DNA from: Mesorhizobium sp. L-2-11
Lineage (GTDB): Bacteria; Pseudomonadota; Alphaproteobacteria; Rhizobiales; Rhizobiaceae
Direction of reading: 5' to 3'
NCBI RefSeq assembly: GCF_016756595.1
Contig: NZ_AP023257.1
Coordinates: 1,178,001 to 1,242,000, forward strand
Length of the DNA stretch: 64,000 bases
The translations under genes and the position numbers were made by a program. The notes beneath the pieces were generated by a model. That model saw only the letters and a list, made by a program, of their open reading frames with translations, ran no database searches and had not been told where the DNA came from. Shown here piece after piece: positions 38,247 to 41,788 of the stretch. The stretch's first letter is position 1, and each line of letters opens with the position of its first letter.

Positions 38247-38260
38247 GTGAGGCGCCTCTT

Positions 38261-38403
38261 CCTTCTCCTCTTGTGGGAGAAGGTGGATCGGCGCGCAGCG
38301 CCGAGACGGAAGAGGGGTGTTGGAAGAAATGAAGCGTCGGCGTTCCCTGGAACACCCCTCATCCGGCCGCTTCGCGGCCACCTTCTCCCACAAGGGGAGA
38401 AGG
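38261..38403 (+). repeat. 143-bp inverted repeat (BIME-like)
   Basis: The outer arms CCTTCTCCTCTTGTGGGAGA (from 38261) and, at the right end on the other strand, CCTTCTCCCCTTGTGGGAGA have one mismatch. Inner blocks GAGGGGTGTT and AACACCCCTC also pair. It fills the space between trcR and the WYL gene, which converge, and may serve as a bidirectional terminator. Confidence 0.7.
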
Positions 38404-38416
38404 AAAAGCGCCATGC

Positions 38417-39136
38417 CTAGGTTCGCGCGGCGCGGTCCGGCGCCATGCCGTAGTCCTCGCTGCGCTCCACCGCGCGGTAAAAATCGGCGAGTTGCTTGCC
38501 GCGCTCCGGCTTGAAGATGCGGCCTGCTATGACCACTGAAGCGATGCGGTCGATGCGGAAAGCGCGAAAGTCGTCGCGCATCTCGCACCAGGCGACCAGC
38601 GTCCACACCTTGCCCCAGAACCACAGACCCAATGGTCTGATGTCGCGCGCGGTGCTGCGGCCTGCTTCGTCTGAGTAGTCGATGGTCAGCACCTGGCGTT
38701 TTTCCACCGCGCGCTCGATCAGGTCGATTGCTTCGCGGGCGGCGTCGCTCACCACCCACATCGGCGTGTGGATCTCGGTGCGGGCGATGCGGTCCTTTTC
38801 GGCATCGGGCAGCACGGCGCCGATCTTTATCAGCGCCTCGTCGGCGGCCCGCGCCATCGCAGCGCCGCCAAACGCACGCACCATGCGGGCGCCGGCGACC
38901 AGCGCGACGATCTCGTCACGCGTGAACATCAGCGGCGGAAGGTCGAAACCCTCCCTCATCATGTAGCCGACGCCGGCCTCGCCGTCGATCGGCACGCCCG
39001 TCGACTGCAGGTCGGCGATGTCGCGGTAGATGGTTCGCTCGGAAACCTCGAGCCACGTGCCCAGCTTCTGGGCGGTGACCAGACGGCCACCGCGCAGATG
39101 CTGCACGATCTGGAAGAGCCTGTCGGCGCGGCGCAT
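38417..39136 (-). CDS. YafY-type WYL-domain transcriptional regulator
   Basis: The 239-residue protein has a DeoR-like HTH (MRRADRLFQIVQHLRGGRLV, TAQKLGTWLEVSERTIYRDI, ADLQSTGVPIDGEAGVGY) and a WYL domain. In the WYL domain, LGLWFWGKVWTLVAWCEMRD replaces the W-Y-L core, then FRAFRIDRIASVVIAGRIF. Such proteins bind ligands or nucleic acids via WYL and repress nearby genes. It is the last gene of a minus-strand set with an MGMT/Atl1-like gene (73-nt gap). Twin palindromes upstream of this set are its likely operators. Confidence 0.9.
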   Translation of the reverse strand: MRRADRLFQIVQHLRGGRLVTAQKLGTWLEVSERTIYRDIADLQSTGVPIDGEAGVGYMMREGFDLPPLMFTRDEIVALVAGARMVRAFGGAAMARAADEALIKIGAVLPDAEKDRIARTEIHTPMWVVSDAAREAIDLIERAVEKRQVLTIDYSDEAGRSTARDIRPLGLWFWGKVWTLVAWCEMRDDFRAFRIDRIASVVIAGRIFKPERGKQLADFYRAVERSEDYGMAPDRAART

Positions 39137-39209
39137 CGTATGGTCCCTCGATGTTGTTTTTAGCCTGTCGTTGGCCCAAAACCGATTCCAACTTTCGGGG
39201 CGACATGCA

Positions 39210-39620
39210 TCATGGCTCAAGCCCTTCGCGCTTGCGCTGCGCGGCGACGAATGCCGCGCCGAAGGACAACTTCCGTGTTGTCGGCGTCTTTGCATCCAGC
39301 ACCCGCCAGAACGGCGCGATGTCGCTCAGCGTCATGCCGCGTTCCAGATCCTCGTTGGCGGCCTCGGCGACAGTGCGCAGATGATAGCCGATGGTGACCG
39401 GACATGTCACTTCGGCGCCGTGCTCAATGGCGAGCGCGATGCGCAATGCGCGGACATCCATGGCCACGCCCTCTGGAATGCAGCGAATGAAATCATCAAC
39501 CTGCCGAGCCGTCGGCACCAGCATCGGCTGGCCCTCGACGACGTCGCCAACAGTCCGCGGCGTCGGCTTGATGCCGTTGATGCCCGGCGTGTTCAGCCTG
39601 TCGTTCCAGCTCTTTACCAT
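39210..39620 (-). CDS. MGMT/Atl1-like conserved hypothetical protein
   Basis: A 136-residue protein: MVKSWNDRLNTPGINGIKPT, DDFIRCIPEGVAMDVRALRI, ALAIEHGAEVTCPVTIGYHL and LSDIAPFWRVLDAKTPTTRK. The I-P-x-G-x-x-x-x-x-x-x-x-R-x-A-L...A-x-x-x-C-P-x-T-x-G order, ending in a P-F-W-R segment, resembles a rhizobial group annotated as MGMT-family (methyltransferase DNA-binding or alkyltransferase-like) proteins. The catalytic PCHR of true MGMT is absent; P-F-W-R stands near that place. It follows a palindromic operator and a 14-codon leader frame. Confidence 0.6.
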   Translation of the reverse strand: MVKSWNDRLNTPGINGIKPTPRTVGDVVEGQPMLVPTARQVDDFIRCIPEGVAMDVRALRIALAIEHGAEVTCPVTIGYHLRTVAEAANEDLERGMTLSDIAPFWRVLDAKTPTTRKLSFGAAFVAAQRKREGLEP

Positions 39621-39623
39621 GCG

Positions 39624-39668
39624 TCACCTAGACGAAGAGCCCGAACGTTTTGCAGGGATGAAGGCCAT
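39624..39668 (-). other. Candidate 14-codon leader peptide
   Basis: ATG at 39668 encodes MAFIPAKRSGSSSR and stops 3 nt before the downstream ATG (39620). It has a strong AGGAG (39675-39679) at 6-nt spacing, better than that of the gene it precedes. It may couple translation or be chance. Confidence 0.35.
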
Positions 39669-39690
39669 GTCTGTCTCCTGATACTTTCGA

Positions 39691-39728
39691 ATTATTGCAC
39701 GCCGCTCCTGACACCATACTGTCAGGAG
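39691..39728 (-). promoter_or_regulatory. Palindromic operator plus extended -10, site 1
   Basis: Perfect 9-bp arms CTCCTGACA (39705-39713) and TGTCAGGAG (39720-39728) have a 6-nt centre. On the minus strand an extended -10, TGC-AATAAT (hexamer 39691-39696), follows the palindrome by 8 nt. The palindrome therefore covers the -35 region of the promoter for the 39620 gene. The DJ-1 stop codon (39722-39724) lies inside the palindrome. Confidence 0.65.
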
Positions 39729-40324
39729 GTTTCAGCAAACTCTCCTTCGGTATACTCCTTGGCGAACAGTGTGCGCATCTCAGCGAGGTCGCTGCTTCTC
39801 TGGGGATAGAGCGTCTTCAAATAGGCAAGAGCGAAGGTGCCGGGAGCCGAACCCGGCGCGGACACGATGCGACCGTCGGCGACGGCATAGGGCACGTCCT
39901 GATAGTTCTGGGCGCCCGGATAGCCCGGTTCCTTTTCGTTGATCCAGTCACGACCATTGCTGGTGTGTTTGGCGTTGCCGAACAGGCCGGCACGCGCCAG
40001 TGCCAGCGTGCCCGCGCAGATGCCGCCGACCACGCCGCCGCGCGTCGCAATCGCTGTCAGCAGTGCGGAGACGTCAGGTGGGGCATCGACCCACTGGTCG
40101 GAGCCGATGACCGCGACGGCGTCAAGATCGGTGTTTTCATCAACCGCGGTGGAGTGGTCGGGCGTCAGCATAAATCCGCTGGCCGAAGTCACCGGCTTGC
40201 CGTTCGGCGCCAGCGACACCGCGCGTGCGCCGAACCATTCGACCGCCGAAGCCGCCAGCAGCCCGTATTCCCAGTCGGCGAAGCGATCGATGAAAAGAAA
40301 GCCGATGGTTTTCTGTTCGGACAT
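39722..40324 (-). CDS. DJ-1/PfpI family protein
   Basis: The 200-residue class I glutaminase-like fold starts MSEQKTIGFLFIDRFADWEY. It has the nucleophile elbow GGVVGGICAGTLALARAGLF (Cys) and ALAYLKTLYPQ. The glutamate expected near strand 1 is in FADWEYGLL. Relatives act as deglycases, glyoxalase III or isonitrile hydratase-like enzymes; which is undecided. The stop codon is embedded in operator site 1. It follows a DUF1127 gene by 84 nt, probably in one transcript from site 2. Confidence 0.88.
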   Translation of the reverse strand: MSEQKTIGFLFIDRFADWEYGLLAASAVEWFGARAVSLAPNGKPVTSASGFMLTPDHSTAVDENTDLDAVAVIGSDQWVDAPPDVSALLTAIATRGGVVGGICAGTLALARAGLFGNAKHTSNGRDWINEKEPGYPGAQNYQDVPYAVADGRIVSAPGSAPGTFALAYLKTLYPQRSSDLAEMRTLFAKEYTEGEFAETS

Positions 40325-40408
40325 TTCCTGCTCCGTCTTTCGGTCCGCCGGACCTGTTTATCTGGGCGCCGTAGCGTCCGCATCCAACCGCTGCCGCGAA
40401 AAATCGCC

Positions 40409-40576
40409 TCAATGGCCGCGGCCGTGGCGGCCTTCGTAATTGTCCGGCCAACCGATGTCCTTGCGGATGCTCTGCGGCAACTCGTTCAAGAAACGCCGGG
40501 TGCGGATCTCGTTGCGCATCGTCCGGATCTTGCCGACATAGTGCTGCACGCTACGCAGAATGGTAAAACTGTTCAT
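40409..40576 (-). CDS. DUF1127 small protein, second copy
   Basis: 55 residues: MNSFTILRSVQHYVGKIRTM, RNEIRTRRFLNELPQSIRKD, IGWPDNYEGRHGRGH. The R-x-x-x-x-L-x-x-L-P-x-x-x-R-K-D-I-G-W-P core is DUF1127, here with the D-I-G-W-P ending seen in many rhizobial members. The start (40576) is preceded by GAGAGGAGACC. It is the first gene after operator site 2, so it is probably co-regulated with DJ-1. Confidence 0.88.
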   Translation of the reverse strand: MNSFTILRSVQHYVGKIRTMRNEIRTRRFLNELPQSIRKDIGWPDNYEGRHGRGH

Positions 40577-40604
40577 AGCTGGTCTCCTCTCTTTCGATGC
40601 AGAC

Positions 40605-40642
40605 ACTATCGCACACCCCTCCTGACAGCAGTCTGTCAGGAG
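40605..40642 (-). promoter_or_regulatory. Palindromic operator plus extended -10, site 2
   Basis: Perfect 10-bp arms CTCCTGACAG (40619-40628) and CTGTCAGGAG (40633-40642) surround CAGT. On the minus strand TGC-GATAGT (hexamer 40605-40610) lies at exactly the same distance as in site 1. The two 24-bp palindromes match at 21 positions. The site lies in the gap between the DUF1127/DJ-1 genes and the divergent VOC gene. Confidence 0.7.
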
Positions 40643-40834
40643 GCTGAGCGGTCTTTAGCGAGCGTGCCAGGTTTTGCCGGTTCCGATCCGTCTGCCCGAG
40701 AGAAGCAGGGTTTTTCGTCGCCGGGGTCAAGTCTTTCATCTGCCCAACGACGGAGCGTCGGAATACGCAGCAGCGATAGGGCCGGGGTTCTGATATTGAA
40801 GGAGAAGAATTTTCCAGAGATCAGGGAGATGACA

Positions 40835-41788
40835 ATGAGCCTGCAACTGACAGGAATTCACCATCTGACCGCAATCACCGCGAATGCGCCGGGAAACCTT
40901 CATTTCTACACCGGCATTTTGGGGATGCGGCTGGTCAAGAAGACGGTCAATCAGGACGACACGTCGGCCTATCACCTTTTCTATGCCGACGCCGAGGCGA
41001 CGCCTGGCACCGATCTTACCTTCTTCGATTGGCCGGTCGGACGCGAACGGCGCGGCACCAACAGCATTGTGCGGACCAGCCTGAGGGTCGCCAGCCCTGA
41101 AAGCCTTGCCTGGTGGAAGCAGCACCTGTCCGGCGAGACCGTCGCGACGGGAGAGATCGGCGATATCGGCGGCTACCCGTCGCTGGACTTCGAAGACCCG
41201 GAAGGCCAGCGCCTGCGTCTCGTCAGCGATGGCGGCAAGGGCGACAGTCATCCCTGGGCTCAAAGCCCGATCCCCATCGAGCACCAGATACGCGGGCTCG
41301 GGCCTATCGTCATCAGCGTTCCCGACATCACCAACACTGAAATCGTGCTGACCAGGGTGATGAACATGCGCAAGGCGCGGGACTATGCCTCGCCGGATGG
41401 TCAGGGCCAGGTTCACGTCTTCGAGATGGGAGAAGGCGGCCCGGCGGCGGAGCTCCATGTCGCTGTGCAGCCGGGCCTTGCGCCGGCACGGCAGGGCGCC
41501 GGTGCGGTCCACCACGTCGCATTCAGGGCGCCGGACCAGAAGATTTTACATCAATGGACGGCGCGGCTGGCCGAGTTCCGCCTGCCGTCAAGCGGTGAGG
41601 TCGAACGATACTACTTCCGCTCGCTCTATTTCCGGGAGCCGAACGGCATATTGTTCGAGATTGCCACCGACGGCCCAGGGTTCACGGCCGACGAGCCGCT
41701 GGAAACGCTGGGCGAAAGCCTGGCCTTGCCACCGTTCCTCGAACCGAAACGGGCCGCGATCGAGGCCGGCCTCAAGCCGCTGGCATAA
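40835..41788 (+). CDS. VOC-superfamily ring-cleaving dioxygenase (MhqO-like)
   Basis: The 317-residue protein has two glyoxalase/dioxygenase modules. Module one: GIHHLTAITANAPGNLHFYT, DTSAYHLFYADAEATPGTDL. Module two: GAVHHVAFRAPDQKILHQWT, YFRSLYFREPNGILFEIATD. The His, His and Glu metal ligands of the type I extradiol fold are visible (IHH, HHVAF, FEIATD). MhqO-type members degrade hydroquinones in electrophile stress. ATG 40835 is preferred over 40829 because AGGGAG lies 6 nt upstream. It diverges from the DUF1127/DJ-1 unit across operator site 2. Confidence 0.9.
   Translation: MSLQLTGIHHLTAITANAPGNLHFYTGILGMRLVKKTVNQDDTSAYHLFYADAEATPGTDLTFFDWPVGRERRGTNSIVRTSLRVASPESLAWWKQHLSGETVATGEIGDIGGYPSLDFEDPEGQRLRLVSDGGKGDSHPWAQSPIPIEHQIRGLGPIVISVPDITNTEIVLTRVMNMRKARDYASPDGQGQVHVFEMGEGGPAAELHVAVQPGLAPARQGAGAVHHVAFRAPDQKILHQWTARLAEFRLPSSGEVERYYFRSLYFREPNGILFEIATDGPGFTADEPLETLGESLALPPFLEPKRAAIEAGLKPLA

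Follow-up and report, generated by a model that had tools for sequence, protein, structure and literature searches.

A short WYL regulator and its palindromic operator point to a candidate SOS-independent damage regulon in Mesorhizobium and its relatives

We analyzed a 64-kb stretch of the genome of Mesorhizobium sp. L-2-11 (hereafter the window), in which positions 38417..41788 hold five genes and two copies of the palindrome CTCCTGACA-N6-TGTCAGGAG (hereafter the operator). Genes for a DUF1127-like, a DJ-1, an MGMT/Atl-like and a WYL protein follow one another in that order on the minus strand, and a VOC gene diverges from them on the plus strand, the directions that an initial annotation had given. 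Judged from sequence comparison across genomes, the conserved unit is the WYL protein together with the operator, not the five genes. The operator also stands before uvrB and detoxification genes, which points to an unrecognized response to DNA damage and toxic chemicals beside the classical SOS response. Our preferred reading, to which we give a probability of about three in four, is that the WYL protein is an SOS-independent activator that senses DNA damage, probably as single-stranded DNA (ssDNA), and raises excision repair and electrophile detoxification. No published account of this operator or regulon was found in a literature search that covered few subscription journals.

Linkage of the WYL protein to its operator

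Both operators of the locus fit the palindrome with zero mismatches at its 18 arm positions, and the count of two in the window compares with 0.01 expected (100 shuffles, none of which reached two). The two near-identical palindromes that had been noticed before the two halves of the locus are thus exact copies of one site. The own genome contains the 20-bp core in exact form three times, twice at the locus. It has off-locus sites before uvrB (C1:2117668, one mismatch) and before a desaturase gene (C1:3216785, one mismatch), and single-mismatch sites in L005/L006.

The regulator and the operator co-occur. The family set comprised 199 genomes, with a WYL orthologue defined by a score of at least 250 bits and the operator by at most one mismatch. 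An orthologue is present in 95 genomes and the operator in 96; both occur in 89, the orthologue only in six, the operator only in seven and neither in 97 (Fisher p = 5e-40, uncorrected for relatedness). Among 284 genomes of the order outside the family (WYL at E <= 1e-50), the corresponding counts are 30, 18, 5 and 231 (p = 5e-23, likewise uncorrected). Two of the seven family genomes with only the operator (G115 and G184) have a WYL protein of 46-49% identity, and in three of the five such order genomes the site adjoins a WYL gene of 37-42% identity.

Neighbourhoods were fetched for 80 of the 94 orthologue genomes besides the own one, and the operator lies upstream of the WYL gene in all 80 (60 exact, 11 with one and nine with two mismatches). 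At class level, 29 WYL hits of 44-70% identity were considered, and 25 of them have the operator, 21 times exactly, twice with two and twice with three mismatches. It was also found in 22 of the 299 genomes of a phylum sample, six of them belonging to other classes. A WYL gene of 39-49% identity is present within the 3-kb locus in all six other-class genomes and is downstream of the site in five. Four of these loci (L460-L463) share the arrangement operator, small VOC gene, WYL gene, with TGTCAGGAG-N8-TAGACT, and L461 lies beside secF; a search for an E. coli copy of this arrangement gave no match.

The genes between the operator and WYL vary. Over the 80 family loci, clustering gave a small VOC glyoxalase in 29, DJ-1 in 17, the Atl-like gene in 7 and the DUF1127-like gene in 42, and tblastn gave DJ-1 in 19, Atl-like in 13, DUF1127-like in 56 and the 317-aa VOC gene in 1; a second operator (at most two mismatches) lies farther upstream in 36. 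Among the 80 closest WYL loci (97-99% identity, 78 of them from Mesorhizobium), 36 contain the VOC, DUF1127-like, DJ-1 and Atl-like genes with two operators, and the remainder carry a subset. This variation rules out the five genes as a conserved entity. Of the 80 closest loci, 37 have the 317-aa VOC gene near WYL, versus 1 of the 80 family loci; its place as a core member is unsupported, and from this distribution it seems to have been added locally. By eye, no xAxxxT lies 8 nt from operator 2 on the VOC side. The initial annotation had taken the five genes and the 24-bp site for one response. The palindromes are indeed tied to the WYL protein, and the site recurs with WYL in other genomes, whereas the five genes do not hold together as a unit.

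Promoter geometry and targets away from the locus

On the minus strand, the Atl-like gene is preceded by operator 1 followed by GGAG-CGGCGTGC-AATAAT, and the DUF1127-like gene by operator 2 followed by the near-identical GGAG-GGGTGTGC-GATAGT; at both operons the operator overlaps the -35 region. We scored the occurrence of the -10-like pattern xAxxxT offset by offset downstream of GGAG. It prevails at offset 8 in the WYL-operon promoters (67 of 80, next best offsets 9), at the second operators (36 of 36, next 12), in GST promoters (8 of 16, next 4) and at WYL-linked sites outside the family (30 of 54, next 7, with genome G752 counted twice among the 54). On the opposite side of the site, no offset from 2 to 9 has xAxxxT in more than 7 of 80.

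Away from the locus, we surveyed 80 regions with 82 sites among the matches listed, mostly exact or end-mismatch sites. The regions were picked before their genes were seen, those of the own genome excepted, and often as one per near-identical pair. The largest neighbour clusters are uvrB (19, or 20 with the own genome), XRE regulators (17), GST (16) and fatty-acid desaturases (16), and the XRE genes face the desaturase genes at shared sites. Smaller clusters comprise a 156-aa family without a Pfam match (4), MFS (3), uvrA (2) and EgtB/EgtD (2). The genes of all these clusters are downstream of their site. Among the genes seen once are those for AlkZ-like, DNA_alkylation and GFA proteins and a further VOC gene. 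The recurrence of detoxification and DNA-repair genes as targets upholds the stress theme proposed earlier. L147 and its 16 related loci carry a further conserved block (about ATTTTGTGCGCATTGTCGCGTTG) beside the operator, between the desaturase gene and the divergent XRE gene; it is perhaps the XRE regulator's own site.

To compare uvrB promoters, we took 30 genomes with and 30 without the WYL protein, selected by WYL status and mostly one per genus, and allowed up to three mismatches. The operator precedes uvrB in 26 of the 30 genomes with the WYL protein versus 1 of the 30 without it (p = 2e-11). Three of the former (the own genome, G033 and G040) were known beforehand to carry the site, and without them the count is 23 of 27 (p = 7e-11). 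The best matches in the remaining 29 genomes without the WYL protein have 6-8 mismatches. Two further families of the order likewise show the uvrB site (L399-L401). GTTCN7GTTC, the alphaproteobacterial LexA box, lies upstream of uvrB in only 2 of the 60 genomes.

The uvrB promoters share a conserved pair of promoter-like elements, CTTTCCATTT / CCATATT, and the operator lies upstream of this pair. In 25 of 43 distinct promoters, 70 nt separate the operator centre from the -10, and the other distances are 52, 57, 59-61, 69, 71-73, 82 and 84. The uvrB transcript looks leaderless, which would place the operator centre at about -82, and in some genomes near -64, -72 or -94. The operator also accompanies uvrA at L165, L193 and L447. 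In the uvrA promoters of L165 and L193 (around position 2501), a LexA-type box was seen by eye just past the WYL operator, an order that suggests double control of uvrA there.

Genes and other features of the locus

The coordinates of the locus are collected in the table below.

Table. Features of the locus (window positions) with their supporting observations
Feature	Position	Strand	Remarks
WYL regulator	38417..39136	-	239 aa; HTH_11 + WYL; no room for WCX domain
MGMT/Atl-like protein	39210..39620	-	136 aa; predicted fold only
-10-like AATAAT, Atl-like/WYL operon	39691..39696	-	8 nt past operator 1; position kept in 67/80 family loci
Operator 1, CTCCTGACA-N6-TGTCAGGAG	39705..39728	.	palindrome; precedes Atl-like gene and WYL
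DJ-1/PfpI protein	39722..40324	-	200 aa; Pfam PF01965 1.7e-15; PDB 2fex E 1e-29
'DUF1127-like' basic protein	40409..40576	-	55 aa; of 80 loci, 42 have a relative by clustering and 56 by tblastn
-10-like GATAGT	40605..40610	-	8 nt past operator 2; xAxxxT there in 36/36 second-operator promoters
Operator 2, CTCCTGACA-N6-TGTCAGGAG	40619..40642	.	before DUF1127-like/DJ-1; also 193 bp ahead of VOC start
VOC ring-cleaving-dioxygenase-like protein	40835..41788	+	317 aa; 1zsw/MhqO relatives; candidate regulon member

Of the family labels given by the initial annotation, Pfam confirms those of the WYL (WYL and HTH_11), DJ-1 (DJ-1_PfpI) and VOC (Glyoxalase) proteins. The VOC protein matches PDB entry 1zsw, a glyoxalase family protein, at 261 bits, and it is related over its full length to the MhqO/PcpA ring-cleaving dioxygenases (3oaj/4huz), with 174 bits to MhqO and 124 bits to 2,6-dichloro-p-hydroquinone dioxygenase. 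The label DUF1127 came from the motif KDIGWPD, which we take to be characteristic of that family, and is unconfirmed: the 55-aa protein has no Pfam or NCBIfam match, and the DUF1127 hidden Markov model of Pfam (presumably PF06568) matched none of five members of the 55-aa family at E <= 10. The MGMT/Atl label is likewise not confirmed by sequence. The 136-aa protein has no Pfam match and no PDB sequence match, a PF01035 (DNA_binding_1) profile search of the own genome did not reach it at E <= 10, and hhalign against two MGMT proteins of the own genome was not significant. A fold search with the predicted structure was weakly positive for the MGMT C-terminal fold and lends the label weak backing. 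The protein has an invariant PFWR, probably at the place of MGMT's PCHR.

The coding end of DJ-1 and operator 1 are fused, as the TGA stop codon lies inside the operator. Downstream of the WYL gene, an inverted pair with 31-nt arms (94% complementary, 38256-38408) separates it from the convergent trcR (PF06242, 37554-38246); it is perhaps a repeated intergenic palindrome serving as a terminator. The trcR gene is a stable neighbour, present within the WYL locus in 60 of the 80 family neighbourhoods. An RNA-family scan of the window at the gathering threshold returned a tRNA and nothing else.

Proposed mechanism, alternatives and relation to known regulators

The WYL protein scores 4e-16 for HTH_11 and 3e-18 for WYL in Pfam, and its nearest solved structure by sequence in a PDB search is PafBC (E 3e-10). 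Relatives place its start at MRRADRLFQ, and the listed 292-aa open reading frame begins at a start farther upstream. These relatives have about 221-248 aa, save one cut or read-through case; about 37 residues follow the WYL domain, and WCX is missing throughout. Arginines R191, R194 and R197 of the motif FRxFRxDR are invariant in 81 of 81 WYL sequences, and the PDB-search alignment equates them with arginines of PafBC. PafBC cannot do without the matching Arg pair for binding ssDNA (PMC11804915), and the equivalent pair is needed for activation in SiwR (PMC10693628). The PADLOC model PDLC01457 ('WYL, CAS associated signaling') matches the protein at 239 bits. No PADLOC model matched the other four locus proteins, so that the five include no defence gene, and what PDLC01457 collects may be this repair regulator and not genes of defence.

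The protein combines several features of the PafBC/SiwR/DriD type, namely an N-terminal winged helix-turn-helix (HTH) with a WYL domain, groove arginines (FRxxR), an operator at a fixed distance from the -10 and DNA-repair targets. Since the WCX domain common to those regulators is absent, we consider it a variant of that group, not a member. SiwR, a WYL activator of Mycobacterium smegmatis, is a homodimeric HTH-WYL protein that controls adjacent genes from a palindrome upstream of the -10 (PMC10693628), much as we infer dimerization and activation here. It needs a -26 region with a conserved GGA (GGAG here), has a glyoxalase-like neighbour in some actinobacteria and responds to genotoxic stress; it differs in its WCX domain, its 19-bp imperfect palindrome, its DinB-like targets and its orthologues particularly in Actinobacteria, and the part of the account drawn on describes no uvrB site (PMC10693628). 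PafBC, closest among PDB sequences, is linked to the mycobacterial P1 promoter tTGTCRgtg - 8 nt - TannnT (PMC5656591), which resembles TTGTCAGGAG-8 nt-xAnnnT here, the latter being one nucleotide longer. Its action is LexA-independent, and uvrB is among the affected genes (PMC5656591, PMC11804915). On the other hand, PafBC is a heterodimer with WCX, of which PafB alone touches promoter DNA (PMC12340889), whereas here the palindrome is complete and takes a second, upstream position at uvrB. The Caulobacter activator DriD is a proteobacterial WYL protein of a non-canonical DNA-damage response and binds a pseudo-palindrome that overlaps the -35 and keeps a constant spacing to the -10; its operator (ATACGAC-N7-GTCGTAT) and targets (didA, bapE, recJ, dnaG) differ, and it appears to contain WCX, given the wording that PafBC 'also' has that domain (PMC12340889). 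PafBC and SiwR act at a -26 element and DriD around -35, in likeness to the -35 substitution proposed below. The phage-defence regulators BrxR and CapW are likewise WYL factors tied to the loci that they regulate (PMC10693628), but the targets here are repair and detoxification genes. A regulator of methylation damage (PMC10957082) was discarded as a relative, since that source, as far as drawn on, concerns Cada2 and not WYL.

The LexA/SOS system, which we take to raise excision repair, is a functional parallel that differs in the near absence of the LexA box from the uvrB promoters above. In our model, the WYL protein would bind the operator as a homodimer and activate transcription. At its own operon, the DUF1127-like/DJ-1 operon and the GST gene of relatives, the site would be centred near -32, and its downstream half-site TGTCAGGAG would substitute for a missing -35, with 8 nt from there to the -10. 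At uvrB, the activator would reach RNA polymerase from its upstream-centred site (about -82). DNA damage, most likely as ssDNA held in the Arg-rich WYL groove, would turn the protein on. The regulon would then raise nucleotide excision repair (uvrB, sometimes uvrA), the handling of lesions and adducts (the Atl-like protein and also AlkZ-like, DNA_alkylation and EgtB/D proteins, each of these three in one genome or two) and the detoxification of lesion-causing electrophiles by VOC glyoxalases, DJ-1 and GST.

Several observations weigh against this model. WCX is part of the PafBC dimer and ligand site, and ssDNA sensing may not carry over to a protein that lacks it. The uvrB sites are without the 8-nt spacing (1 of 20), as are the desaturase sites, and because the spacing is not shared there, the WYL protein may have a second mode of action, or be a repressor, at these genes. 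Helical phasing at uvrB is suggestive only (Rayleigh p = 0.012 for 12 non-modal promoters, 0.18 for seven distinct spacings). A search for a sigma-70 -35/-10 pair in 39550-40900 found none where 0.4 were expected, which is weak evidence for its lack. The uvrB site is absent in four of the 30 genomes with the WYL protein and present in one of the 30 without it, some off-locus clusters and singletons show no evident theme, and the links to AlkZ, DNA_alkylation and EgtB/D are one or two cases each.

The WYL domain could instead sense a small electrophile or adduct, with uvrB recruited as the same chemicals damage DNA. WYL often has a gene for a detoxification enzyme beside it (small VOC in 29 and DJ-1 in 17 of 80 loci) and GST is a frequent target, but PafBC and DriD bind ssDNA (PMC11804915, PMC12340889) and the arginines are invariant in the WYL proteins here; we regard this signal as possible, at clearly less than even odds. 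The protein might also repress the same regulon until freed by an electrophile or nucleotide ligand, in the manner of BrxR/CapW. BrxR is described as a repressor (PMC10693628), and the operators at the own and DUF1127-like operons occupy the usual repressor place over the -35 region. However, the fixed 8-nt distance to the -10 fits activation, and a dimer upstream of the uvrB promoter pair would hardly block RNA polymerase, so that repression seems unlikely.

It is very improbable that the palindrome is the binding site of some other regulator, with the WYL gene as just one target among several. Sites without a WYL orthologue at the cut-off do exist in seven family and five other order genomes, yet two of the seven and three of the five have the more distant WYL proteins mentioned above, the uvrB site is absent in 29 of 30 genomes without the WYL protein, and among the genes followed it is WYL that stays with the site from 100% to about 40% identity and across several classes. 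An accidental grouping of stress genes and repeated elements, without any regulatory unit, would suit the fact that no more than 36 of the 80 closest loci have the full gene set; conservation upstream of WYL, the excess of palindromes, their co-occurrence with WYL, the uvrB contrast and the -10 phasing disfavour such a grouping so strongly that we give it almost no weight.

Because of the uvrB, GST and desaturase targets, the phasing of the -10 and the connection with WYL regulators of DNA damage, the likely trigger of the activator shifts from the small electrophile suggested by the gene content towards DNA damage, with an electrophile as the less likely alternative. As a tentative and rather doubtful extension, the promoter logic TGTCAG(G)-N-minus-10 might be shared by descent between the proteobacterial WCX-less WYL homodimer and the actinobacterial PafBC heterodimer as one ancient SOS-independent damage response, whose proteobacterial branch would fuse excision repair (uvrB, with the Atl-like protein feeding lesions to UvrABC) with electrophile removal.

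If the activator model is correct, many alphaproteobacteria have a second damage regulon, in which uvrB is under a WYL regulator rather than LexA and the operator of the regulon can be predicted from sequence. Short WYL proteins of this type would gain a function and targets, and the detoxification of toxic metabolites would be linked to excision repair. The system would also serve as a test of whether ssDNA sensing needs the WCX domain.

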